Positions 4,093 through 53,190 of a stretch of 64,000 bases of DNA are shown here, piece by piece (within the stretch, counting starts at the first letter, position 1; the number at the start of each line of letters is the position of its first letter). A model generated the notes under the pieces. It had not been told where the DNA came from. It was given only the letters and a program-made list of their open reading frames with translations, and did no database searches. The stretch covers positions 1 to 64,000 of the forward strand of contig JAPOVP010000162.1 of NCBI GenBank assembly GCA_026708085.1, in the 5' to 3' direction. This DNA comes from Caldilineaceae bacterium (GTDB taxonomy: Bacteria; Chloroflexota; Anaerolineae; Caldilineales; Caldilineaceae). A program made the position numbers and the translations under genes.

Positions 4093-5565
4093 TCAGGCCT
4101 TGACCAGCGCCTGCTGGTACATTCCGTCATAGCCCCGTTGCCGCTGCTCCTCTGACAGACCGCGATTCACCTCCGCATCGTACTTTCCGGCCAGCAGTTC
4201 GCGGTAGAAGCCGTAGTTGACGCCCTTAACTTTTTCATCGTCCGGGAATCGGTGATAGTTGTCCTTGCTCATCAGGCTTTTTCCCTCGGCGATCAGCTGG
4301 AAGCCCAGTGCCGAGCCAGGGTAGGGGGCGTAGTAGGAGATGGACGGGAACACACGCTTCATGCGTTTGAGCATGCGCATCGTTTTGAAGGCGTCCTCGT
4401 CGGTTTCGCCCGGTATGCCGAGCATGATGTTCGACCAGAAGACAGGCGGCTCTTTCCCTTCCGCTATCATCTCATCCCCCAGGCGGTTGACCAGATCGAT
4501 GGCGAAGTTATTGTCCTCCTCGGTGCATTCCTTATTGAGCAGCTTCAGAATGCGGTCACTTCCAGACTCAAAGCCGATCGAGATGAGGTTCCAGTTGGTC
4601 TCGCGCACCAAGGCGGTGAACAGGTCGGGCCACTGGCGCACGGTGTCGGCGCGGCCGGCTGCCCAGTATGGCCACAGTTTATTGGCGCGGCGGGGGTACT
4701 GTTCGATCCATTCCTGCAGCCACTTGGGGTTCTGGAAGAACATTGAGTCGTGGATCACCACTGAGCCCACTCCGTACTTCTCGTCGAGCTCGTTGAGTTC
4801 GTCAATGATCATGGAAACGGGGCGACGTCCCATGTTGGGGATATAGGATGCCTCATTGCAGAAAACGCATTGCCAAGGGCAGACTCTGCTGGTGATGATG
4901 GTGGCGACAGGCGGGGGTCCCCAGCCGCACTCCGGCTCCATCGGCCAGTTGAAGTTACGCTCCAGCTTCAGGGCGCGCACAGCCCTCCTCGGCCGGGCAT
5001 TGGCGAGCGCTTCCTTCCAGTTGGCGGGTTTGGGCCAAAGCTCGCGGTCAATCTGCGGCCAGTCGGCCATAGAACGGGAGCCCTGCCCGAGGAACACTCT
5101 CGGAAAGCTCCCAGGGTCCCGAACCAGGTCGAGTATGACTTCTTCACCGGCCCCCTGGCAAATCTTGTCGAAGGCCTCGACCTCGGCCATTTCATCCGGC
5201 GCGACCGTCGCGTGCATGCCGCCGGCCAGTACGAGGCCATCGGGGTTGATCTCCTTGAAGATCCGGGCAGCCTTAAGAGCGACAGGAAAGGTGTAGCTGC
5301 GCACGTTCATCAGGGCCATCTTGTAGCCGCGAAGTTTGGGCGCCAGCTGCTCCCACGAGGTGACGGCCCGCGTGGAAACGATGTCGGTCTGCAGGCCGTT
5401 CTGGTGCATGATGGTGCGCAAGAGACCGAGCCCGTGGTCCTGCCATTGCTCGTGGGGACCCTGTGGGTACACCAAGTCACCCAGATCGCCCAGGTCTATC
5501 CAGATGATGTCGCTCTCACGTTTCCCGCTACCTTGCCAGTTCAACTTCAACAAATGCTCCTCCAA
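4093..5565 (-). CDS. B12-binding-domain radical SAM protein
   Basis: This 490-aa enzyme has an N-terminal cobalamin-binding-like Rossmann region (about 20-150, with LVLAGGMHATVAPDEM and CQGAGEE) and a radical SAM barrel whose 4Fe-4S ligands are C229, C233 and C236 in CPWQCVFC. Later segments (LISIGFESGSDRILKLLNK; SNIMLGIPGETDED) are the typical SAM-binding parts of the BchE/hopanoid/methyltransferase-like class. The substrate cannot be read from the sequence. It follows a rhodanese and Fe-S genes on the same strand, which fits a need for Fe-S and sulfur supply. Confidence 0.88.
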   Translation of the reverse strand: MEEHLLKLNWQGSGKRESDIIWIDLGDLGDLVYPQGPHEQWQDHGLGLLRTIMHQNGLQTDIVSTRAVTSWEQLAPKLRGYKMALMNVRSYTFPVALKAARIFKEINPDGLVLAGGMHATVAPDEMAEVEAFDKICQGAGEEVILDLVRDPGSFPRVFLGQGSRSMADWPQIDRELWPKPANWKEALANARPRRAVRALKLERNFNWPMEPECGWGPPPVATIITSRVCPWQCVFCNEASYIPNMGRRPVSMIIDELNELDEKYGVGSVVIHDSMFFQNPKWLQEWIEQYPRRANKLWPYWAAGRADTVRQWPDLFTALVRETNWNLISIGFESGSDRILKLLNKECTEEDNNFAIDLVNRLGDEMIAEGKEPPVFWSNIMLGIPGETDEDAFKTMRMLKRMKRVFPSISYYAPYPGSALGFQLIAEGKSLMSKDNYHRFPDDEKVKGVNYGFYRELLAGKYDAEVNRGLSEEQRQRGYDGMYQQALVKA

Positions 5566-5656
5566 CTTTCAATACGGACCGAGTCAGATCCCTCGATATT
5601 GCCGACTCTCGGCATGTCGCCAGCTCTCCGATCGCCTGAAAAGGCAATGGGATGTT

Positions 5657-6028
5657 TTACATACTGGCATATTTGCCGACCGACTCATCGATTTCGTCGG
5701 CCCAGGCATCGATGCCCCCCGCCATACTGACAGCATTAGACCAGCCCTGTTGGCGCAGAAAGACGGTCACCTGCGCGCTGCGCAGTCCTTTGTGACAGAA
5801 CAGGACCACGTCCAAATCCTTGTCCTGGCGCAAGTCCTCCGGTAAGGCGTCGAGACGCCGTTGGCGAAGCTCGCTCAAAGGCATGTTGATGAAATCTCCG
5901 TCAGGGAGACTGGCCAGTTCAAGTTCATTCAGTTCACGCACGTCGACCAGCAGGAATTCAGTATCGTCCTTTTGTTTTGCGGCGACGTCGTGCACGGTGA
6001 CTTCCGGAGCGCCATACGGATTGGGCAT
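5657..6028 (-). CDS. Rhodanese-like sulfurtransferase
   Basis: This is a single-domain rhodanese of 123 aa. The active-site loop CHKGLRS places the catalytic cysteine at residue 78, and the N-terminal FLLVDVRELNE and C-terminal GGIDAWADE are the usual flanking motifs. Such proteins carry persulfide sulfur. Between DUF2203 and the radical-SAM gene, downstream of an A-type Fe-S carrier and MoaA, it may feed sulfur to cluster or cofactor assembly. That role is inferred from position only. Confidence 0.9.
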   Translation of the reverse strand: MPNPYGAPEVTVHDVAAKQKDDTEFLLVDVRELNELELASLPDGDFINMPLSELRQRRLDALPEDLRQDKDLDVVLFCHKGLRSAQVTVFLRQQGWSNAVSMAGGIDAWADEIDESVGKYASM

Positions 6029-32897: not shown

Positions 32898-34877
32898 ATG
32901 AGCGAAACTATCGAAGCAACGGTCAAGACGACTCCGGCCAATGTTGAAGCCGAACAGGCAGTGCTCGGTTCACTACTGATCGATCCGGATGCGATAGTAA
33001 ATGTCTCCACTACGCTTCGCGACGTAGACTTCTATCGCGAGCCGCACCAGTGGATATTCAGGGCCTTGCTGGCTCTTCATGAAAGGCGTGAACCGGCTGA
33101 TTTCGTCACCCTTGTCGACGAACTGGAGAGGAACGAACAGCTGGAGGAGATCGGTGGCCCCGCCTATATCACGCAACTGATCAACAGTACGCCGACGGCG
33201 ATATATGTGGACTACTATGCGCGCATCGTTGAGCGCACGGCCACGCTGCGGCGCCTGATCGGCGCGGCCAACCAGATCGCTGAACTCGCCTATGACGAAA
33301 GCAACGATGTCAACGAAGTTGTCGACAGGGCCGAGGCGATAATTCTCGGTGTCAGTGAAAGCCGCATCCACCGAGACCTGACGCCGGTTGCGCGCGTGCT
33401 GGATGAAGTCGTCGACCAGATTGATTTCCTGGCCCGCAATCAGAACCGGCTGATGGGTGTGCCTACCGGCTTCGTTCTTCTTGATAAGATGCTGGGGGGT
33501 TTCCAGAAGAGCGATTTAATAATTGTGGCCGGCCGGCCGGGGATGGGCAAGTCAAGCCTTGGGCTGTCAATTGCACAGAATGCCGCCCGCCGCTACAACG
33601 CACGCGTTGCGGTTTTCAGCCTGGAGATGAGCAGCGAGCAGGTTGTACAACGTCTTCTCTCTATCGAGACCGCGATCGACAGCCATCGCCTGCGCATGGG
33701 TCAGATCGATGAGGAGGAATGGCCGATCCTGGTCGAGGCCGCCAATACACTCGCCGGTACCAACATTTTTATCGATGACACGCCCGGCGCCACGGTGATG
33801 GAGATTCGTACGAAGTCGCGGCGACTCTATGCCGAACGCGGCATCGACCTTATTGTTGTCGACTACATGCAACTCATGTCCGGAGGAGGAAGTGGCATGA
33901 GAGGCGAGAATCGTCAGCAGGAGATCAGTTTTATCAGTCGTTCGCTCAAAGGGCTGGCCAGAGAGCTCAACGTACCGGTTATCGCACTAAGTCAGTTGAG
34001 CCGGGCCGTCGAAACACGGGCGAACAACAAGCCGGTACTCTCCGATCTGCGTGAAAGCGGCTGTCTTAGTGGCGATACCGTAGTCTACCTGCCTGAAATA
34101 GGCATGTCGTGCCCGATACGGGACCTGGTGCATCGCCGAGGCTTCCAGATCGCCGCCCTGGACCGTGCGCGGCCCGGTCTAGTACCCGCCGCAGTGAGCA
34201 ACGCTTTCCGCACTGGTACGAAGCCGGTTCACCGCATCACAACAGAACTGGGCAACTCCATACGAGCAACCGCCAATCACAAGTTTCTTTCCGAAGAGGG
34301 CTGGAAACGCCTGGACGCACTGCGCATAGGGGAGTGCATCGCCACGACAGATGAGGCGGCGCTGCATGCGGTCGCCCTCGAACTTGAACAGGCTGTCGGG
34401 GCCTTCAAAGACCAAAAATTCGGGTCCGCCGCCGCTCAGACTGCGTACATGCGCGTTGCAGACGTGCCAGGGGGGCTCTGGGATCGTCAATCGAATCCTG
34501 AGGCCGACGCCACAGGTCTTCCATTTCCAACCGCGGCCGCGCATGTCGAGACTACAGCGACTGGTGTATGTTGGGACAGGGTTGTTTCCATTGAGGCCGA
34601 TGGCTTCGATGACGTCTACGACCTGACGGTACCTGTTTACCATAATTTCACAGCCAACAGTTTCATTGTCCACAACTCGATCGAACAGGATGCCGATGTC
34701 GTCGTTTTCGTTTATCGCGAAGATTACTACGATGAAGAAACGGAACGGCAAAATATTGCAGACCTGATGGTGGCCAAGCACCGGCACGGTACGACGGGGA
34801 CGGTCAGTCTCTATTTTCGTAAGGAACTCACCCAGTTCCGCGATCTGGAGCTGAGACGGGAGGACCTGGACTATTGA
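32898..34877 (+). CDS. dnaB: Replicative DNA helicase DnaB with a mini-intein
   Basis: DnaB unwinds DNA at the fork as a hexamer. The N-terminal domain begins [20 protein letters not shown], and the RecA-like ATPase has GRPGMGKSS (Walker A) and [13 protein letters not shown] (Walker B). The 659-aa frame contains a 205-aa intein at residues 389-593, between SDLRESG and [16 protein letters not shown], leaving a normal 454-aa helicase after splicing. The insertion point is the one used by the Synechocystis DnaB intein. DnaD-like and DnaC-like genes follow, forming a helicase and loader cluster. Confidence 0.97.
34062..34676 (+). mobile_element. Mini-intein in DnaB (residues 389-593)
   Basis: The element starts at Cys389 ([11 protein letters not shown], block A), has a block B with [15 protein letters not shown], block F ([12 protein letters not shown]), and ends with the block G sequence FIVHN followed by Ser of the host protein. 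Cys1, the TxxH of block B, the penultimate His and the terminal Asn are all present, so splicing should work. No LAGLIDADG or HNH endonuclease is present; about 60 residues of low-complexity linker replace it. It cannot move by itself. Confidence 0.95.
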
Positions 34878-44335: not shown

Positions 44336-44848
44336 ATGACTGAAGAGTCTCCAATACAGGACGAACTCAACGAAGAAGAGCTTTGGGATGGTCCCATCCC
44401 GGCGAGGTTGGCCCGCAAGCGAACCGGCATCAAGCCCCAGTTCCTGGTGGCCGGACTTCTGTTGGTTGGGGTTATCATTTCGCTGATGGTCTATGGGCTG
44501 ACCACGGCCAAAGCGTACTGGTTAACCGTTGACGAGGTACATCAGAAGGGCGACTCTCTGGTATCGCAGCGCCTGAGGGTAAACGGCGTAGTCGTCGAAG
44601 GCAGTGAGGACTGGAACGCAGAAGAGGTGACCCTTCGCTTCAAGATAGAGGACGAAGAAAACCCCGGCCGTCAGCTCTCAATTGTCCACTACGAACCGCG
44701 GCCGGATAATTTCCATCGGGCCGCATCGGTCATCGTGGAGGGAGAGCTTCTGCAGGGGGGGGTCATAGAGGCCGATGTACTGCTACTCAAGTGTCCTAGC
44801 CGGTATGAGGAGTCTCCTGAAGATATACTGCTTCAGGCTGCCAATTGA
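44336..44848 (+). CDS. ccmE: Heme chaperone CcmE, cysteine (CxxxY) variant
   Basis: CcmE binds heme covalently outside the membrane and passes it to the cytochrome c ligase. The 170-aa protein has one membrane helix (36-55) and the OB-fold domain (LRVNGVVVEGS; TLRFKIEDEE; VIVEGELLQGGVIEADVLLLKC). The usual heme-binding HxxxY is replaced: C153 and Y157 form CPSRY at exactly that place. This cysteine form is known from Desulfovibrio and some archaea. AGGTGG lies eight bases before the ATG. It is the first gene of the maturation locus. Confidence 0.9.
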   Translation: MTEESPIQDELNEEELWDGPIPARLARKRTGIKPQFLVAGLLLVGVIISLMVYGLTTAKAYWLTVDEVHQKGDSLVSQRLRVNGVVVEGSEDWNAEEVTLRFKIEDEENPGRQLSIVHYEPRPDNFHRAASVIVEGELLQGGVIEADVLLLKCPSRYEESPEDILLQAAN

Positions 44849-44962: not shown

Positions 44963-46849
44963 TTGTACTGCAAAAGGTCTGCCTGTGCACTTCTACTGAT
45001 GGCCTCTATCGTAGCATTCTTCGTGACGCTGATGACGGACAGCCTTAACGCGCAAGAATCCCCTCCGTCTTACGATCCGCAGCAGGTTCCTGTTCCACAA
45101 CGTCCTCCTGTTGCCGGGTTGGCCAAGGAATCCTACACACAGAACTGTGCTCCCTGCCATGGGGCAAGCGGCGACGGCGACGGACCGGCCGGTGCTGCTG
45201 CCGACCCGACTGTCTTTTCGGACCCTGCTGAGGTCTGGGAGCGTTCGCCGGCCGAACTGTTCTTCGTTACCAAGTTCGGCCGAATAGAGAACCTGATGCC
45301 TCCGTGGCGCAACAGTATGAGCGACGAGCAGATCTGGCAGGTAGTCTACTATGCGTGGAACCTGCATACGGACGAGAAGGAGGTCGCGGAAGGAGGGGAG
45401 ATGTATGCCCAGTCGTGCCTTGCATGCCACGGCGAAGGCGGCCGCGGAGACGGTCCGGAGTCTGGGCCAGGGGTGCCCGATTTTGCCGCGCAGGACCCGA
45501 TGATCTTTCTCAGTCAGGCAGAGCTGGAAGGGCGCTGGCGAGAGTCCCATCCGGAACTCGGTTCTGACTGGTCAGCTGCTGCGAAGCAGGGGGTCCTCGA
45601 ATACATTCGCAGCTTTAGCTATCAACCGAAATGGGCGCCATTCGATGTCACCGGTCCTGGTAGAATCACAGGCCAGCTTTTCCAGGGTACGCAGGATGGG
45701 CCCGCGCTGCATCAGACGGAGGTCACACTAAATGTTTACCAGCAGACCAACTTGGTGACGACGAGAATCTCACCCATCGGAGCCGACGGCAGTTTTGAAT
45801 TCGAGAATCTGCCTGTGGACGAAGGCTTCTATTTTCTGGTTGAGACCGAGCACCGAAATGTCCGGTACACTTCCCCGATCCTGGCGTTCAGCGGTCCCGA
45901 TTTCACTGAAGGCCGGACCGGCCCGGATCGTATCAGTACAACCTTACCCGTTTTTGAAACGACTACCGACCCGGACGGCCTGCATGTTACGCGAGCCAAC
46001 TGGATTATCGAACATGAACCGGGAAACCTGCTCATCGGACAGCTGTACACCTTTGGGAACCGCAGCGGCCGCACTTTCACGGGCATTGATAGTGAGCTGT
46101 TTGACGTGCCGGTGACCCTGGCTGTCCCATTGCCGGAAGGCGCGCTGGAAGTAGAAATCCAGGACGGGATGGTGGGCGAGGCCTATCGAATGGACCAGCA
46201 GACTCTCTACGATACGCGTCCTGTCCTTCCCGGGCCAGGCTCGCGCCAGATCTTTATCCGATTTCGTCTGCCATATGCTGGAGAGTCCGCGCGGTCAAGT
46301 TTTCCCGTCCCTTACGAAACCGAACTGTTGAACCTCCTTGTGGCCGACCTGCCGGGGTTGGAAGTCGACTTCACGGTTGAAGGGGAGTCACTAGAGTTCG
46401 CAGGGGAGGAAACTGTTCAGGGCGTCCTCTTCCACCTCTGGAGCGCACCGTTTTCAGGTGACCAGCCCGTTGTCCTCTCGCTGCGCGGCCTTATCGCCGC
46501 CGGCGGGAGCGACCCCAGGCCTGCCAGAAACACGCAGCCAGGCCGAGAGTTGCCAGTTTCCGCACCGCCACTTGATTTCCGCATTCCCCTGGCGTTCGGC
46601 GGAGCTGTCACAGTCGTGCTGCTCGCCTCTCTTCTGCTATTCGTCCACCGTGAAAGAACCAGAAGCCCGCTGACAGCAGAGCAGCTTGCAGCCCGTGGCG
46701 AAGAACTGATAGACAGTATTGCGCGGTTGGACGATCTGTATGCTCTGGGGGAGCTGGAAGAGGGTGACTGGAGGAAGAAGAGGGCTGAGTTGAAGAGAGA
46801 GCTGATCGACATTGCACTGGCAGAAAGTAAGCTGCGAGCGACGGAATGA
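44963..46849 (+). CDS. Diheme cytochrome c with C-terminal membrane anchor
   Basis: This 628-aa protein starts at TTG; an ATG at 44999 is an alternative. After a signal peptide come two c-type heme sites, CAPCH (C62, C65, H66) and CLACH (C152, C155, H156), with MPPW as a likely axial Met region. The middle (about 210-540) is a large beta-rich extracytoplasmic part with a carboxypeptidase-regulatory-like beginning. A membrane helix (LAFGGAVTVVLLASLLLFV) is near 565, then a cytoplasmic coiled region. Its stop overlaps the ccmA start, so it is part of the operon. An electron-transfer role or a client of the locus is likely. Confidence 0.88.
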   Translation: MYCKRSACALLLMASIVAFFVTLMTDSLNAQESPPSYDPQQVPVPQRPPVAGLAKESYTQNCAPCHGASGDGDGPAGAAADPTVFSDPAEVWERSPAELFFVTKFGRIENLMPPWRNSMSDEQIWQVVYYAWNLHTDEKEVAEGGEMYAQSCLACHGEGGRGDGPESGPGVPDFAAQDPMIFLSQAELEGRWRESHPELGSDWSAAAKQGVLEYIRSFSYQPKWAPFDVTGPGRITGQLFQGTQDGPALHQTEVTLNVYQQTNLVTTRISPIGADGSFEFENLPVDEGFYFLVETEHRNVRYTSPILAFSGPDFTEGRTGPDRISTTLPVFETTTDPDGLHVTRANWIIEHEPGNLLIGQLYTFGNRSGRTFTGIDSELFDVPVTLAVPLPEGALEVEIQDGMVGEAYRMDQQTLYDTRPVLPGPGSRQIFIRFRLPYAGESARSSFPVPYETELLNLLVADLPGLEVDFTVEGESLEFAGEETVQGVLFHLWSAPFSGDQPVVLSLRGLIAAGGSDPRPARNTQPGRELPVSAPPLDFRIPLAFGGAVTVVLLASLLLFVHRERTRSPLTAEQLAARGEELIDSIARLDDLYALGELEEGDWRKKRAELKRELIDIALAESKLRATE

Positions 46850-47526
46850 CCGAACGCACCGCGCCGCTCATCCGTTGCGAGCACGTAGAGAAGCGCTTCG
46901 GACACAAACGGGTACTGCGTGACGTCTCCTTCACGGTTGCGGAAGGGGAAGTGCTGTCACTGCTGGGCGCTAACGGGTCGGGAAAAACGACCCTTCTGCG
47001 GATCATTTCAGCACTAGTAAGGCCGGACAAGGGAGAGGTGTGGCTGGGACCGGTTCCCCTTTCCTCGGCCGCAGTTGAGATCCGCCGCTACATCGGCGTT
47101 GTCGCTCACGCCCCTCTTCTGTACGACCGGCTCACTGGCCTTGAAAATCTAGATTTCTACGCACGGCTTTACGATCTGGCGGAGCCTCAGAAGCGTATAG
47201 AGAAGCTGCTGCGGACTATGGATCTCTGGCACTGGCGGGATGATGCAGTGCGAACCTATAGCCGTGGAATGTCACAGCGGCTGGCAATTGCCAGAGCGCT
47301 CCTGCACGATCCCCCCGTCGTCATACTTGACGAGCCGGATGCCGGCCTCGATCGTCAAGGCGTTCAGCTGCTGAGCGAGCTCTTGGCGCAGTTGCGTTCG
47401 AGAGGCCGTGCGGTATTTGCTACAACGCACAACCTGGAACATGCAAAGAACTGGAGCGACCGGGTCTTTGAACTGCGGTCCGGGCATCTGCATCAGATCG
47501 AGTTTCCGGATCGTATAGAACATTGA
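46846..47526 (+). CDS. ccmA: Heme exporter ATP-binding subunit CcmA
   Basis: CcmA is the ATPase of the CcmABCD complex that releases heme-loaded CcmE. The 226-aa protein has Walker A GANGSGKTT, the signature YSRGMSQRLAIARAL, Walker B VVILDEPDAG and a switch His (ATTHNLEH). The ATG overlaps the stop of the cytochrome gene by 4 bases. CcmB follows 34 bases later. Confidence 0.93.
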   Translation: MTERTAPLIRCEHVEKRFGHKRVLRDVSFTVAEGEVLSLLGANGSGKTTLLRIISALVRPDKGEVWLGPVPLSSAAVEIRRYIGVVAHAPLLYDRLTGLENLDFYARLYDLAEPQKRIEKLLRTMDLWHWRDDAVRTYSRGMSQRLAIARALLHDPPVVILDEPDAGLDRQGVQLLSELLAQLRSRGRAVFATTHNLEHAKNWSDRVFELRSGHLHQIEFPDRIEH

Positions 47527-47560: not shown

Positions 47561-48319
47561 ATGGCGGGCTTCCATGGGGGCTCTTGCGTAATGATGGCGG
47601 AGCTTTCAGGGGCAGAGCGTGTTCGCAGCAGAGAGGGGGGATTTGGAGCATACCTGCGTCGCGTATGGGCTGTGGCGGGAAAAGATATCCGTGCTGAGAT
47701 GCGGTCGAAGGAGGTCGTGGGAACGGTGGCAGCCTTTGCCCTATTGGCCGCTGTCGTATTCGGGTTGGCGTTCGACTTGCGGGTCCCCCGGCCCGAGCTG
47801 GTGGTACCGGGCATCCTGTGGGTGATCGTCCTGTTTGCGGGGGTGTTGGGACTGCACCGTTCATTTGGTTCTGAAGTGGAAAGAGGCACTTTGGCCGGAC
47901 TGCTGTTGGCCCCGATGGAACGGTCGGCGATATATCTGGGCAAGGCTGCCGCGAACCTGATTTACTTCCTGACTGTTGAGGCCCTCCTTGTGCCCACCCT
48001 GCTTATCCTGTTTGACGTCAATCTGCTAAAGCCGTTCATTCTGCTGGGATTGCTACTGGGTACTGTCGGATATGTGGGCGTCGGAACTCTTTTCGCCGCG
48101 CTGACATCACGTAACAGAGCCAGAGAGACCCTTCTGCCCGTTCTGTTGCTGCCGGTTCTCGCCCCCCTCTTCATTTCGGGAGTCGGGCTGACGTCTGTCA
48201 TACTAGATGGGCGGACGAGCGCCGAAGCGTGGCCGTGGGTTGGGATCATCGGCCTCTATGATGCCCTTGTTTTCGCTATCGCATTTTTCTTGGTCGATGT
48301 AATCTGGGAACAGATGTGA
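47561..48319 (+). CDS. ccmB: Heme exporter membrane subunit CcmB
   Basis: CcmB is the membrane partner of CcmA. The conserved N-terminal part AGKDIRAEMRSKEVV is followed by six helices, with FGSEVERGTLAGLLLAPMERSAIYLGKAAANL in the first cytoplasmic loop. The length of 252 aa includes about 10-20 extra N-terminal residues; ATGs at 47591 and 47594 are alternative starts and none has a strong ribosome binding site. It lies between ccmA and ccmC. Confidence 0.92.
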   Translation: MAGFHGGSCVMMAELSGAERVRSREGGFGAYLRRVWAVAGKDIRAEMRSKEVVGTVAAFALLAAVVFGLAFDLRVPRPELVVPGILWVIVLFAGVLGLHRSFGSEVERGTLAGLLLAPMERSAIYLGKAAANLIYFLTVEALLVPTLLILFDVNLLKPFILLGLLLGTVGYVGVGTLFAALTSRNRARETLLPVLLLPVLAPLFISGVGLTSVILDGRTSAEAWPWVGIIGLYDALVFAIAFFLVDVIWEQM

Positions 48320-48341: not shown

Positions 48342-49079
48342 ATGAGCGCGCTCTTAAGACCAACAACCACCGACCGCTGGTTCATGCCCCTCTTGGTATT
48401 CGACGCCATAGCAGGTCTAGCGATGGTCGCTGTAATGTGGGCAGGGCTACTCTATGCCGGTGACGCGGTTAATCTTGCCGGCGTTGAGCAGGTGGCCCAG
48501 CGTATCTTCTATTTTCACATTGGGAGCAATATCGCCGCGCTTCTGGGCTTTCTTGGGTCGGTGGTTGGCAGCATCGGTTATCTGGTAAGCCGGCGCATGG
48601 TGTGGGACCGCTGGGCGGCGGCGAGTGTTGAAATTGGCACGGTTTTTGGGATCCTTGTGCTTCTTTCAGGTGCAATCTGGGCCAAACCTGCCTGGAATAC
48701 GTTTTGGATTTGGGATCCCCGCCTTACGACCTCAACGATCACCGTTCTGATTTACATCGCTTACATGCTATTCCGAAACGGATTCGAGGACCCCGAGACA
48801 CGAGCCCGCTTCGCCGGCGTCTACGCTATGTTCGCTTTTTTGAGCGTTCCCCTTACTTACTATAGTGCGCGCCTATTCCGATCGATCCATCCAATCGTCT
48901 TCGACGGCGGCAACGAGGAAGCACAGGGGGGGTTTGCCATCGGCCCTACGATGGGACAGACGCTTACTTTAGCCATGATCGGTTTCGCATTACTCTTCTT
49001 GGCTTTACTGTTCCATAGAGTCCGGCAGTTGGCGTTTGAGGACCGCCTCAATGCAGTACGGGAGCGTGTTAACGAATGA
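48342..49079 (+). CDS. ccmC: Heme-handling protein CcmC
   Basis: CcmC loads heme onto CcmE. The 245-aa protein has six helices, the tryptophan-rich heme-handling motif in the form AWNTFWIWDPRLTTS, and two candidate axial histidines, in FYFHIGSNIAA and SIHPIVFDGG. Its stop overlaps the start of the small ccmD gene (ATGA). Confidence 0.93.
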   Translation: MSALLRPTTTDRWFMPLLVFDAIAGLAMVAVMWAGLLYAGDAVNLAGVEQVAQRIFYFHIGSNIAALLGFLGSVVGSIGYLVSRRMVWDRWAAASVEIGTVFGILVLLSGAIWAKPAWNTFWIWDPRLTTSTITVLIYIAYMLFRNGFEDPETRARFAGVYAMFAFLSVPLTYYSARLFRSIHPIVFDGGNEEAQGGFAIGPTMGQTLTLAMIGFALLFLALLFHRVRQLAFEDRLNAVRERVNE

Positions 49080-49219
49080 TCTATCTGGCATCGGTGTTGA
49101 TCCTGCTGTGGCTCTTTGTGGGAGGCTACCTTGTGTTTATGCTGGTTCGCCAGCGGACGATGGAGAAGGCGTTGCGTTCACTGGAGGAGAGGCTTCAAGA
49201 CCGAGAACAGGGTGGGTGA
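49076..49219 (+). CDS. ccmD: CcmD-like small membrane protein
   Basis: This 47-aa gene overlaps ccmC by 4 bases. It begins MIYLASVLILLWLFVGGYLV, one membrane helix, followed by a basic and then charged helical tail (RQRTMEKALRSLEERL). CcmD is a small single-helix protein required to release holo-CcmE from CcmABC. Size, topology and position all fit; sequence conservation in CcmD is weak, so the call rests mainly on context. Confidence 0.8.
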   Translation: MIYLASVLILLWLFVGGYLVFMLVRQRTMEKALRSLEERLQDREQGG

Positions 49220-49362: not shown

Positions 49363-50289
49363 GTGCAAGAGATTTCAAGAGTTGGAAACGTAGGAACAGG
49401 AAATCTGTCCAGGGCCCCAGAGCAGGCGCAGGCCAGGCGTACCAGCACTTTCTTACATTCGCTTGCCTTCGTCATTGGATTTGGGGCCATATTCACGCTG
49501 CTCGGTTCTGCCGCAGGGCTCTTGGGTCAGAGCTTGAACTCCTATCTGCCTCTCATTCAGCGGCTCGGGGCCATCCTGCTGGCAATCTTTGGGTTGACTA
49601 CCCTGGGGATTATTGGCTGGATAGTCAATCGAGTTCGGGCAAACGGGAGGCTTATCGCAAATCCGGCAGTGGCCGCGCTCGTGGACATATTAGGATTTCT
49701 CAATGCCCTAATGTATACCGAGCGCCGCGTGACCGAACTTCACAAGGTAAAGCGAGGCTGGGGATACCTCAGCAGCGCGTTGATGGGAGTGAGTTTCAGT
49801 GCCGGCTGGGTACCTTGTGTCGGCCCGATTCTGGCCAGCATCCTATTCCTGGCAAGTGACAGCGCCACGGCAGTGCAGGGGGCTCTCCTCCTGGCCATAT
49901 ACAGCCTGGGGCTTGGTCTGCCGTTCCTGATTACCGGAGCCGCCTTCAGCCGGGCGACTGAAATTCTCCGCCGGCTCAACCGGCACGCCAATATTGTCAG
50001 TCTCGTCAGCGGTGTTTTTCTTCTCTACGTGGCCTGGCTGCTCTGGGCCGACCAGTTGACAATGTTGACGACACAGTTTGCGTTCCTGAATCAGTGGGTT
50101 TTCCTGCTGGAGGAGGCGCTATCGTCGTCAATCGGCGTCAATGCGGTCTTCAGCGCCGGGGCGCTAAACGCCGCCCCCCTGGCCTTCATTGCAGGCATTA
50201 TCAGTTTCATCAGCCCCTGCGTACTGCCTCTTATTCCGGCATATATCGGGTATCTGAGCGGCGCTGCGCTCTCCGGGGCCCGGAGCTGA
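49363..50289 (+). CDS. ccdA: CcdA-like thiol-reductant transporter with permuted order
   Basis: CcdA carries electrons across the membrane to thioredoxin-like proteins. The 308-aa product starts at GTG with a polar N-terminus, then HSLAFVIGFGAIFTLLGSAAGLLG (usual helix 2), SFSAGWVPCVGPILASILFLA with C152, and later helices. The segment LAFIAGIISFISPCVLPLIPAYIGYLSG with C286 is at the C-terminus. In ordinary CcdA this segment is helix 1 and comes first. Both working cysteines are thus present in reversed order. The upstream 140 bases do not encode another copy. It precedes the thioredoxin-like gene by 17 bases. Confidence 0.85.
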   Translation: MQEISRVGNVGTGNLSRAPEQAQARRTSTFLHSLAFVIGFGAIFTLLGSAAGLLGQSLNSYLPLIQRLGAILLAIFGLTTLGIIGWIVNRVRANGRLIANPAVAALVDILGFLNALMYTERRVTELHKVKRGWGYLSSALMGVSFSAGWVPCVGPILASILFLASDSATAVQGALLLAIYSLGLGLPFLITGAAFSRATEILRRLNRHANIVSLVSGVFLLYVAWLLWADQLTMLTTQFAFLNQWVFLLEEALSSSIGVNAVFSAGALNAAPLAFIAGIISFISPCVLPLIPAYIGYLSGAALSGARS

Positions 50290-50306: not shown

Positions 50307-50900
50307 ATGAAGCAGACTTTGGTTGTGGCAATGGTGGTCGCAGTTGCATTTCTTCTGACTGCCTGTGCGACGGCGGCGCCAGGAGAGAACGCCTCTGACG
50401 CATTCAACCTCACGCCGCTTGAACAGTTCCCTGACGAACTAGGGAACGGCTTCCCGGTGGCAAATCTGGTCCAGGAGGGAAGCCCGGATGTGGGAGAGAT
50501 TGCGCCAAACTTCGCCTTTTTCCTCGCCGACGGTCGGGGGGCAGATTTAGCCTCACTGCAAGGCAAGCCTATAGTGCTTAATTTCTGGGCCACGTGGTGC
50601 GGTCCTTGCCGGGCCGAAATGCCTGACCTGGTCGCGCTTCACGAAAGCGATTCCGATCTTGTCGTGCTCGAAGTTAACGTCGGGGAAGCGCTGTCAGCGG
50701 TCGAAGAGTTTGCCACTGAGTTCGGGATGAACATGACCGTCGTCCTGGATGAAGAAGACTTGATTCGCCGTGCCTACCAAGTTCGCAACATGCCGACGAC
50801 GGTTTTCATCCGGGCCGACGGCACAATCGGTGCTCGCTGGCCTGGCTTCCTGGCCGGAGAGCAGCTGAATGACCTCGTCCAGCAGATCAAGACCCAGTGA
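50307..50900 (+). CDS. TlpA/ResA/CcmG-type thioredoxin lipoprotein
   Basis: The true start is the ATG at 50307 with GAGAGAGG before it; a longer in-frame extension overlaps ccdA and is not real. The 197-aa product has a lipobox (LLTACA), then a thioredoxin fold with the active site FWATWCGPCRAEMPDL and a cis-Pro in NMPTTVF. Such proteins keep apocytochrome CxxCH thiols reduced. Electrons would come from the CcdA-like protein encoded just upstream. Confidence 0.92.
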   Translation: MKQTLVVAMVVAVAFLLTACATAAPGENASDAFNLTPLEQFPDELGNGFPVANLVQEGSPDVGEIAPNFAFFLADGRGADLASLQGKPIVLNFWATWCGPCRAEMPDLVALHESDSDLVVLEVNVGEALSAVEEFATEFGMNMTVVLDEEDLIRRAYQVRNMPTTVFIRADGTIGARWPGFLAGEQLNDLVQQIKTQ

Positions 50901-50909
50901 GCAGTTGAC

Positions 50910-51185
50910 ATGCAGGTTACACTGTTTACTAAAGAGAACTGCCAGCTGTGCGACGCGATCAAGTATGAACTGCTGGACTTGCAGGCCGAATACGAGTTTG
51001 AAATGAATGAGGCGTTTGTGGACTCCAAGTCAGAAGCCCGTGCGGTAGCGAAAGAGCGCGTCCCGCATGTTCAAATCGAACTAGAGGGGCAGGTCATCAG
51101 TCACTTCGCGTTTCCGGTAAATCAGGTTGAACTGCGACGCGCCATTCGTAACGAAATGATGAAGCGGTCGGAGCGGCAAGGGTGA
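50910..51185 (+). CDS. Glutaredoxin-like protein (DUF836 type)
   Basis: This 91-aa cytosolic protein has the pattern VTLFTKENCQLCDAIKYELLDL with a CQLC active-site-like pair (C11, C14), and VPHVQIELEGQVIS with the cis-Pro. It starts 9 bases after the thioredoxin lipoprotein, in the same unit, and probably takes part in thiol handling. Its partner is not evident. Confidence 0.85.
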   Translation: MQVTLFTKENCQLCDAIKYELLDLQAEYEFEMNEAFVDSKSEARAVAKERVPHVQIELEGQVISHFAFPVNQVELRRAIRNEMMKRSERQG

Positions 51186-51850
51186 GCCCGTCGGTGGACT
51201 CGGGGGGCCAGGAGCAGGCAGAGGGTAGAGTACAGACTGCGATCGCCCGTGGAGTAGACGGCGGTGTACTCTGGATTGCCCGGCACTGGCTGGCACTATT
51301 TAACGTTGTGGTTGCCTTCTATCTGCTGCTGCCGTTGGCGGCGCCTGCACTGGCTCGTTCAGGCCTTACGACGCCGGCATCTCTGATCTACTCAGTCTAC
51401 TCTGCGACCTGTCACCAACTGCCCGAGCGCAGCTATTTCCTCTTCGGTGAACAGCCATTTTACAGCCTGGCATCTCTAGAAACGAGCGGGCTGGCCGAAA
51501 GCCAGGGACTCTTCGAACGCCGTGCCTTCCGAGGCAACGAGACCACCGGTTACAAGATAGCAGTTTGTCAACGGGATGTGGCCATCTACGGATCGGTCGT
51601 GCTGGCCGGCTTGCTCTTCGGCATCCTCCGGGGACGAGCACGTACGATCAGTTTCAAGTACTATCTTGTACTGCTGATCCCAATAGCACTTGACGGCCTA
51701 ACGCAGCTGTTTGGGCTGCGCGAGAGCAACTGGTGGCTGCGCACAATTACGGGGGCCCTTTTCGGCGGGGCATCGGTGTGGCTTGCCTATCCATACATCG
51801 AAGCGGCGATGGGGGATGTTGTGCGGTCAGAGGAGATGCGTTTACGTTAG
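51182..51850 (+). CDS. DUF2085 membrane protein
   Basis: The GTG start overlaps the stop of the glutaredoxin-like gene. The 222-aa product has about four membrane helices and the DUF2085 motifs SVYSATCHQLPERSYFLFG, GYKIAVCQRDVAIYG and PIALDGLTQLFGLRESNWWLR. The two conserved Cys (CHQLPER, CQRD) suggest metal or redox chemistry; the function is unknown. It ends the cytochrome maturation run. Confidence 0.85.
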   Translation: MSPSVDSGGQEQAEGRVQTAIARGVDGGVLWIARHWLALFNVVVAFYLLLPLAAPALARSGLTTPASLIYSVYSATCHQLPERSYFLFGEQPFYSLASLETSGLAESQGLFERRAFRGNETTGYKIAVCQRDVAIYGSVVLAGLLFGILRGRARTISFKYYLVLLIPIALDGLTQLFGLRESNWWLRTITGALFGGASVWLAYPYIEAAMGDVVRSEEMRLR

Positions 51851-52242: not shown

Positions 52243-53190
52243 TCAGTAGTTTGCGATTAGCAGCTCTGTGATAGGGCCGCGTTTTGCCCCGTTACTGTTG
52301 ATCTTGCGGCTGGCGGAAACCTTGTGGATGCTGAACCCGGCGTAAAGATCTTCAAAAAAGCTATCTTCGGGGTTCTCGTTATGGGGGTCCGAGTTGCTTA
52401 GCATCAGTTTGGCGCCAACGTTTCCCAACTCCTGGTAGAAGTGCGCCAGTCGTTTCTGCTCTTCGTCGCCGAAAGGGTTTCTGTAGAATGAGTTGAAGCT
52501 GGCAGTCTTGCTGATTGGGCGGTAAGGCGGATCCAGATAGACGAAGGTTTTTTCGTCCACGAATTCCCTACAGGCCGTGAAGTCCCCAAACCGGATATCC
52601 GTGTTTCGGAGCGAACTTGAGACCGAGCGCAGATTCGCCGCGTCGCAGATTCTGGGATTCTTGTAGTTGCCGTGTGGCACATTGAATTCGCCATTTGAAT
52701 TGACGCGGTAGAGGCCGTTAAAGCAGGTGCGATTCAGAAATATGAGGCGCGCGACATGCCCGGCATCCTCGTCCGGCGCGGTTTCCGAAGCTAAGGGCCT
52801 TCGCTGATTAAACATCTTCCGCGTTTCGTAGAAGAACTCGCTACGTCCATCAACATCGAGGGGTTGGTATAAGCGTTCTATCGCCTGAAGCCGCTCAATC
52901 AACAGTTCGACCTGTTGCCTGATAGTGCGGTAGGCGAGAACCAGGTCTTCATTCATGTCGGAGATGAAGAACTCATCTACGCCAAAACTGTTTGAGATCT
53001 GAAAGAAGACCGCGCCTCCGCCAATAAAGGGTTCGGCATACTTTGTGAGGCTTCCCTCCCACAGACCAGGAGGGAGGTGCTGCCCAATTTGTGAAAGAAG
53101 TTGCCCTTTGCCACCGGCCCACTTGAGAAAGGGTTTTGCCTTTGGCCCCGGCGGAGGCGCAAAGGAAAACTGCGGTTGCTTTGGATGCAT
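52243..53190 (-). CDS. Dam-type DNA adenine methyltransferase (D12 class)
   Basis: This 315-aa N6-adenine methyltransferase has the class alpha order: motif X/I region PFLKWAGGKGQLLSQI, EPFIGGGAVFF (SAM binding), and motif IV DPPY in TFVYLDPPYRPIS, with NRTCFNGLYRVNSNGEFNVPHG between. The target recognition region cannot be read. No restriction enzyme gene is adjacent, so it may be a solitary methylase with a regulatory or repair role, or the remains of a mobile unit. Confidence 0.9.
   Translation of the reverse strand: MHPKQPQFSFAPPPGPKAKPFLKWAGGKGQLLSQIGQHLPPGLWEGSLTKYAEPFIGGGAVFFQISNSFGVDEFFISDMNEDLVLAYRTIRQQVELLIERLQAIERLYQPLDVDGRSEFFYETRKMFNQRRPLASETAPDEDAGHVARLIFLNRTCFNGLYRVNSNGEFNVPHGNYKNPRICDAANLRSVSSSLRNTDIRFGDFTACREFVDEKTFVYLDPPYRPISKTASFNSFYRNPFGDEEQKRLAHFYQELGNVGAKLMLSNSDPHNENPEDSFFEDLYAGFSIHKVSASRKINSNGAKRGPITELLIANY

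Follow-up and report, generated by a model that had tools for sequence, protein, structure and literature searches.

The ccdA gene of the window and its neighbors

We analyzed the first 64,000 nucleotides of contig JAPOVP010000162.1 from a Caldilineaceae bacterium, and this whole stretch is called the window. The ccdA gene of the window lies among genes of a ccm cluster, all on the forward strand:

44336..44848, +, ccmE (PF03100, 8.4e-22)
44963..46849, +, protein with two cytochrome c stretches (PF13442, PF00034)
46846..47526, +, ccmA-like ABC ATPase (PF00005; named ccmA by position)
47561..48319, +, ccmB (PF03379, 3.4e-26)
48342..49079, +, ccmC (PF01578, 7.3e-26)
49076..49219, +, ccmD-like small protein (TIGR04391, 22.5 bits, just below the cut-off of 24)
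49363..50289, +, permuted ccdA, order TM2-TM3-TM4-TM5-TM6-linker-TM1 (GTG start, 308 aa)
50307..50900, +, ResA/TlpA-like thioredoxin, the presumed electron acceptor of CcdA (PF00578, 2.6e-20)
50910..51185, +, glutaredoxin-like protein (PF05768, 3.1e-08)
51182..51850, +, DUF2085 membrane protein (PF09858, 1.8e-19), a neighbor in many relatives

The best NCBIfam match of the ResA/TlpA-like thioredoxin is ResA at 107.6 bits, below the cut-off of 170. Sixteen same-genus relatives were kept (L002-L017), and in each of them an ATG precedes the position of the window's ccdA start by one codon; the window has ACG at this place, and its frame starts at GTG.

Ordinary CcdA has six transmembrane helices, with one redox cysteine each in TM1 and TM4, and the marks of the family are the conserved cysteines of the PC.LP motif in TM1 and the PC.G motif in TM4. 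The segments of the window's protein, with all helix boundaries set by hand, are arranged as follows:

49363..49449, +, new N-terminal tail (residues 1-29), derived from what was the TM1-TM2 loop, predicted to be cytoplasmic from its loop charge
49450..49518, +, TM2 (residues 30-52), from alignment A1 and hydropathy
49558..49620, +, TM3 (residues 66-86), from alignment A1 and hydropathy
49774..49851, +, TM4 (residues 138-163), carrying GWVPCVGP, the motif of the second half, its cysteine invariant in alignments A3 and A2
49816..49818, +, Cys152 codon, within TM4
49876..49944, +, TM5 (residues 172-194), from alignment A1 and hydropathy
49987..50049, +, TM6 (residues 209-229), from alignment A1 and hydropathy
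50050..50172, +, linker (residues 230-270) between the former C- and N-termini, predicted to be periplasmic from its charge
50173..50238, +, moved TM1, now C-terminal (residues 271-292), carrying SPCVLPLIP, from identity to TM1 of the ordinary relative L181
50218..50220, +, Cys286 codon, within the moved TM1

The earlier note had described a protein in which the WVPCVGP segment comes first and the usual opening segment stands at the C-terminus, and the open reading frame and the alignment bear this out: WVPCVGP with Cys152 occupies residues 149-155, and SPCVLPLIPAYIGYLSG with Cys286 occupies residues 284-300, so that TM1 comes last and the collinear TM1-to-TM6 order is broken. Both cysteines, whose survival had also been pointed out, are invariant in 23 of 23 rows of A3 and in 34 of 34 rows of A2. 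The Pfam family DsbD_TM (PF02683) matches the protein in two stretches (E = 1.2e-18, 67.6 bits, cut-off 27.1) and matches 23 of the 23 A3 members at E 0.01. Judged by sequence, the window's CcdA is clearly a member of the DsbD_TM family that departs from it in helix order.

Match to ordinary CcdA and predicted topology

A search with a profile of 23 permuted proteins finds the solved CcdA 5VKV at E = 3.4e-44, and the match breaks into three cyclically shifted blocks: profile positions 257-288 correspond to 4-35 of 5VKV, 23-89 to 40-106, and 129-234 to 112-213. The ordinary relatives L181 and L189 also align to the permuted protein in cyclic block order. In the L001 open frame (316 residues), residues 34-244 are 48% identical to residues 66-246 of L181, and the 35-residue stretch 280-314 is 77% identical to residues 23-57 of L181, the N-terminal TM1 region. 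All parts are thus kept and their order is cyclically shifted relative to 5VKV, L181, and L189, as in a circular permutation. The window's CcdA has the same helices and the same two cysteine motifs as 5VKV (PF02683), but its order is shifted by one helix, and its ends are predicted to be cytoplasmic, not periplasmic.

The predicted topology draws on loop charges, counted over 17 Caldilineaceae rows with hand-set helix boundaries. The mean net charges are positive for the N-terminal tail (+1.5, range -2 to +4), the TM3-4 loop (+2.2), the TM5-6 loop (+3.9), and the C-terminal tail (+0.8), with some rows of the N-terminal tail and the TM3-4 loop negative, and they are zero or negative for TM2-3 (0.0), TM4-5 (-0.7), and the linker (-3.4). 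These values fit a topology with both ends inside and the linker outside. The earlier note had considered the arrangement workable provided that the ends lie on the proper sides of the membrane, which the loop charges suggest they would. The transmembrane domain of DsbD has the ordinary helix order. CcdA is described as this domain alone, performing the same trans-membrane electron transfer, whereas the homologue DsbD spans the membrane eight times and is flanked on either end by periplasmic domains (PMC4460558, excerpt). By analogy with DsbD, both ends of ordinary CcdA would be periplasmic. In our proposal, the linker would connect these two periplasmic ends, and the new break would lie in the cytoplasmic TM1-TM2 loop; every helix would thus keep its direction, and both new ends would be cytoplasmic.

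An AlphaFold model of the permuted CcdA is of medium quality (pLDDT 74.9, pTM 0.71), and its first Foldseek match in the PDB is 5VKV (probability 1.00, E = 0.054, TM-scores 0.42 and 0.55, the latter on the target), in a sequential alignment that cannot place the moved helix. The stretch of residues 225-270, which the earlier note had taken to be additional, consists of the end of TM6 and the linker, which corrects that detail. Judging from its position and from the appearance of the sequences (L074 compared with L077), it corresponds to the C-terminal tail of ordinary CcdA. This counterpart of the tail is longer in the window's family and runs on into TM1.

Conservation of the permuted gene and selection

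The genome of the window is a 193-contig assembly with an estimated contamination of 7.47%, which could point to a pseudogene or to an artefact arising from assembly, sequencing, or a frameshift. We searched 61 genomes (the window's own and 60 relatives) at a match threshold of 1e-10, and 56 of them matched; both motifs lie in one open reading frame, in the permuted order, at 30 of the 30 loci kept, with L020 cut by the contig at TM2. A class-wide search of 395 genomes at a threshold of 1e-5 gave 328 matched genomes, and the permuted order is unbroken in all 43 matched genomes of the window's family (f1). At least one f1 genome (G335) stands among the matchless genomes listed, with 47 matchless genomes beyond that list. 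The same order is present in the same-genus genomes G004, G012, and G015, each of which is a single contig.

For the analysis of selection, 13 genes were taken and 10 were compared with the window's gene (L006 and L013 were left out). The dN/dS ratio (omega) is 0.03-0.10 in 10 of 10 pairs of the window gene with same-genus genes, and the moved helix is conserved in the same pairs, with pN of 0.01-0.06 and pS of 0.31-0.65. The permuted frame contains no internal stop or frameshift. One DsbD_TM gene was found in each of the six same-genus genomes searched, the window's included. Because the order is kept in the family and in single-contig genomes, and because omega is 0.03-0.10, we reject an assembly error, a frameshift fusion, and a pseudogene, and leave them a negligible probability. 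Nor did an assembly error or a second ccdA joined by a frameshift appear, either of which the earlier note had named as fatal to its reading: the frame is intact, no second DsbD_TM gene was found in the genome, and no helix 1 relic was found beside the permuted genes. The circular permutation proposed in that note is thus supported by conservation across the family, single-contig genomes, and purifying selection, in addition to the cyclic match to 5VKV.

Distribution of the permuted order and a second cut point

We scanned a collection of 84,980 species and kept the best 80 loci, 23 of which are permuted and 57 ordinary. All 23 permuted loci come from genomes titled Caldilineaceae, Anaerolineae, Anaerolineales, Anaerolineaceae, Levilinea, Roseilinea, or Chloroflexi/Chloroflexota. 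Within the class, 40 loci outside f1, from 14 families, were picked for a permuted-looking row, and 40 of 40 proved permuted; a further 20 loci of mixed choice gave 16 ordinary, 3 permuted, and 1 cut off. The locus L191, cut by a contig end, was left unclassified. Six loci of family f28 (L209-L212, L214, and L215) are permuted, which brings the families of the class with the permuted order to at least 16 (the 14 families, f1, and f28). Outside the class, it occurs in f79 (four genomes) and f114 (three genomes).

Other phyla were searched with a profile of the junction (TM4 to TM6, linker, and TM1; 34 rows). The phylum set of an Acidobacteria genome (149 genomes searched, 33 matched) contains one genome with a permuted row (G774, L221), and so does the set around Clostridium beijerinckii (199 searched, 100 matched; G1007, L224). 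In the set around a Rhodobacterales genome (249 searched, 132 matched), no permuted row appeared among the matches listed. Both L221 and L224 were fetched and confirmed as permuted. L221 is nearest to ordinary CcdAs (44 to 54% over TM2-TM6), and a search of its family gave no other genome. L224 is nearest to permuted Anaerolineae proteins (61 to 64%), and it is probably a transfer or a mis-binned contig. The genome G748, titled Bacteroidetes, carries two permuted CcdAs closest to those of Anaerolineae and one ordinary CcdA (L134, L222, and L223), and it is perhaps a mislabelled bin.

A second arrangement, TM4-5-6-1-2-3, was found at L208 of G647 (family f123). In the taxonomic order of G647, which belongs to the same phylum as the window, 16 of 18 genomes matched and seven have this arrangement (G647 and six genomes of f134). 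The five contrast loci fetched from that taxonomic order (L232-L236) are all ordinary, and one of them, L233 of G1354, is an ordinary sister within f123. The two halves of the G647 gene (L225) are 62% and 63% identical to the ordinary f123 relative. According to the predicted topology, the second cut would fall in the cytoplasmic TM3-TM4 loop; both natural cuts therefore sit in loops assigned to the cytoplasm by the charge rule, and both join the ordinary ends. The permuted form is widespread and looks recurrent, with a second cut point, and this goes beyond what the earlier note had claimed.

Number of changes in helix order

Trees were built with the helix segments put into one order (about 160-200 columns) and with rows chosen by hand for spread; L078 was left out of A3 and of the 93-, 95-, and 94-row trees. 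Among the distinct rows, 62 of the 92 permuted and 31 of the 74 ordinary ones entered the 93-row tree, whose bootstrap had not settled. This tree contains seven order changes, five of them forced by starred branches, and placing all permuted rows in a single clade costs 170 log-likelihood units (AU p = 3.3e-42). The 95-row tree includes rows from other classes and was run without and with the TM1 columns: without TM1, there are 11 changes, 5 of them forced, and the single clade costs 190 units (AU p = 9.1e-63); with TM1, there are 10 changes, 6 of them forced, with both cuts counted together. A 94-row three-state tree has 11 changes, and at least six are forced by starred branches for the first cut alone. 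In this tree, the second-cut group is one clade (support 100/99) and joins its ordinary sister clade with 100/94.

The permuted rows fall into groups that were named after the tree was seen: A (Caldilineaceae, f24, and f35), B (f31, f19, and part of f4), C (f15 and f17, with a long loop), D (f28, f11, f20, f22, and a similar set), E (Roseilinea-like f4), F (f44), and G (f16). The AU test does not reject joining A with B (p = 0.31), F with G (p = 0.25), D with E (p = 0.48), or f79 with f114 (p = 0.30), and therefore each of these pairs can be one event; it rejects A+B+C (p = 0.0007) and D+E+F+G (p = 0.0045). Counted cautiously, the changes number about seven, one each for A+B, C, D+E, F+G, f79+f114, the second cut, and L221; some of them could be reversals, recombination, or transfer.

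As an alternative, we considered that CcdA was permuted just once, long ago, and that the ordinary order was then regained repeatedly or permuted and ordinary copies recombined within the same cells. Both forms do occur within some genomes, as in the single-contig G064 (f28), with permuted L211 and L212 and ordinary L213; the ordinary L181, L196, and L182 adjoin permuted groups in the trees and could be reversals, and gain and loss are indistinguishable from order changes counted on a tree. Against this alternative, L221, although seen in one genome only, lies in a starred clade whose nine other rows are ordinary, the second-cut clade has its own ordinary sister clade, and 263 of the 265 matched genomes in the three other phylum sets have no permuted row among the matches listed. 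A reversal would also itself be another permutation. We regard a single ancient event as unlikely, and consider it likely that the permutation of CcdA is a repeated move, made several and perhaps seven or more times. In all the cases observed, the move would join the periplasmic ends and cut at one of two cytoplasmic loops, and the family would thus hold close permuted and ordinary relatives.

Likely role and origin of the permuted CcdA

Larger or smaller parts of the ccm cluster accompany permuted ccdA at L061, L065, L070, L074, L151, and L160, and ordinary ccdA lies in the same cluster at L077, L181, L189, and L196. Because the same cluster surrounds both, permuted and ordinary ccdA can fill the same operon slot. 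In group E, ccmC was found beside L096, L168, and L179 and was not found beside L097 and L173. No ResA-like neighbor was found beside the permuted gene in the stretches fetched for L064-L066 and L070-L073, and the neighborhood of L208 gave only an ABC ATPase match.

It is possible that the permuted protein is real but has left cytochrome c maturation, for example, to serve other periplasmic thiol proteins. The seven f79/f114 loci (L201-L207) agree with such a role, and in the stretches fetched, none of them matched any of the eight other neighbor queries, including ccm and ResA-like genes. The window's gene, on the other hand, stands between the ccmD-like frame and the ResA-like gene, no other DsbD_TM gene was found in any of the six genus genomes, and both cysteines are invariant in A2 and A3. 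We find a change of role improbable, somewhat more so than a single ancient permutation. The context and the conservation make it most likely that the protein serves the Ccm system as its CcdA. CcdA reduces ResA with electrons from cytoplasmic thioredoxin (PMC3884852, excerpt). By analogy, the Cys152/Cys286 pair would most likely take electrons from cytoplasmic thioredoxin and pass them to the ResA-like protein encoded next door, which would keep apocytochrome c reduced for the Ccm system.

We put a probability of roughly 80% on the reading that the window's gene encodes a working, circularly permuted CcdA and that similar changes took place several times, mostly in Chloroflexota and once at the TM3-TM4 loop. 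The permuted gene may have arisen by tandem duplication, followed by fusion and trimming. An intermediate frame with helix 1 at both ends was not found among the surroundings of permuted genes, and no helix 1 relic (E < 1, same strand, within 1.5 kb) was found beside 152 permuted frames from partly redundant loci; the duplication route therefore has no direct trace. The repeats around the window's ccdA are short and scattered. A duplicated stretch near 49410 and 50270 had been noticed by eye and was dropped, as the repeat search gave no such pair.

Relation to known permutations

Natural circular permutation is well known for soluble proteins. A 2015 paper presented VKOR and DsbB as the first case in which distant helical membrane protein folds are related by circular permutation (PMC4555120, excerpt), and the authors of a 2020 paper wrote that they knew of no such observation for membrane proteins (PMC7162841, excerpt). 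VKOR and DsbB are the nearest precedent, as theirs is also a natural permutation between helical membrane thiol-disulfide electron carriers, with gene duplication and deletion proposed as the route (PMC4555120, excerpt). Theirs is described as an ancient event and connects two distant families, whereas the change in CcdA appears to recur within one family, and permuted and ordinary CcdA relatives share up to about 62-63% identity in each half. A literature search restricted to open-licence PMC papers found no paper on permuted CcdA.

The permuted CcdA thus represents a kind of change seldom reported for membrane proteins in a form conserved in many related bacteria. Because close permuted and ordinary relatives can be compared directly, the effects of helix order, insertion direction, and end position on membrane protein folding become testable, and the passage of a gene through permutation can also be traced. 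If the move has indeed been repeated, CcdA would show how permutation happens and why it is tolerated or favored. Annotation by collinear alignment may take permuted CcdAs for partial genes.

Variant forms and other genes of the window

A permuted ccdA frame at L072 (908-1921) has a tandem repeat of about 26 residues at the TM3-TM4 loop, which lengthens the loop. The permuted CcdA at L078 (frame 4872-5783) is without TM4 and its cysteine, either from an internal deletion or from a MAG error. In the ordinary L077 and L196 and the permuted L074 and L159-L166 alike, the TM3-TM4 loop is very long, with 108 to 144 residues separating the segments; the long loops that were read contain extra hydrophobic stretches. 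Elsewhere in the window, a DnaB helicase gene (32898-34877) has a match to an intein splicing domain (residues 397-593) inside its C-terminal helicase domain, and a gene for a D12-class N6-adenine DNA methyltransferase (52243-53190, - strand) adjoins the ccm cluster on the opposite strand.
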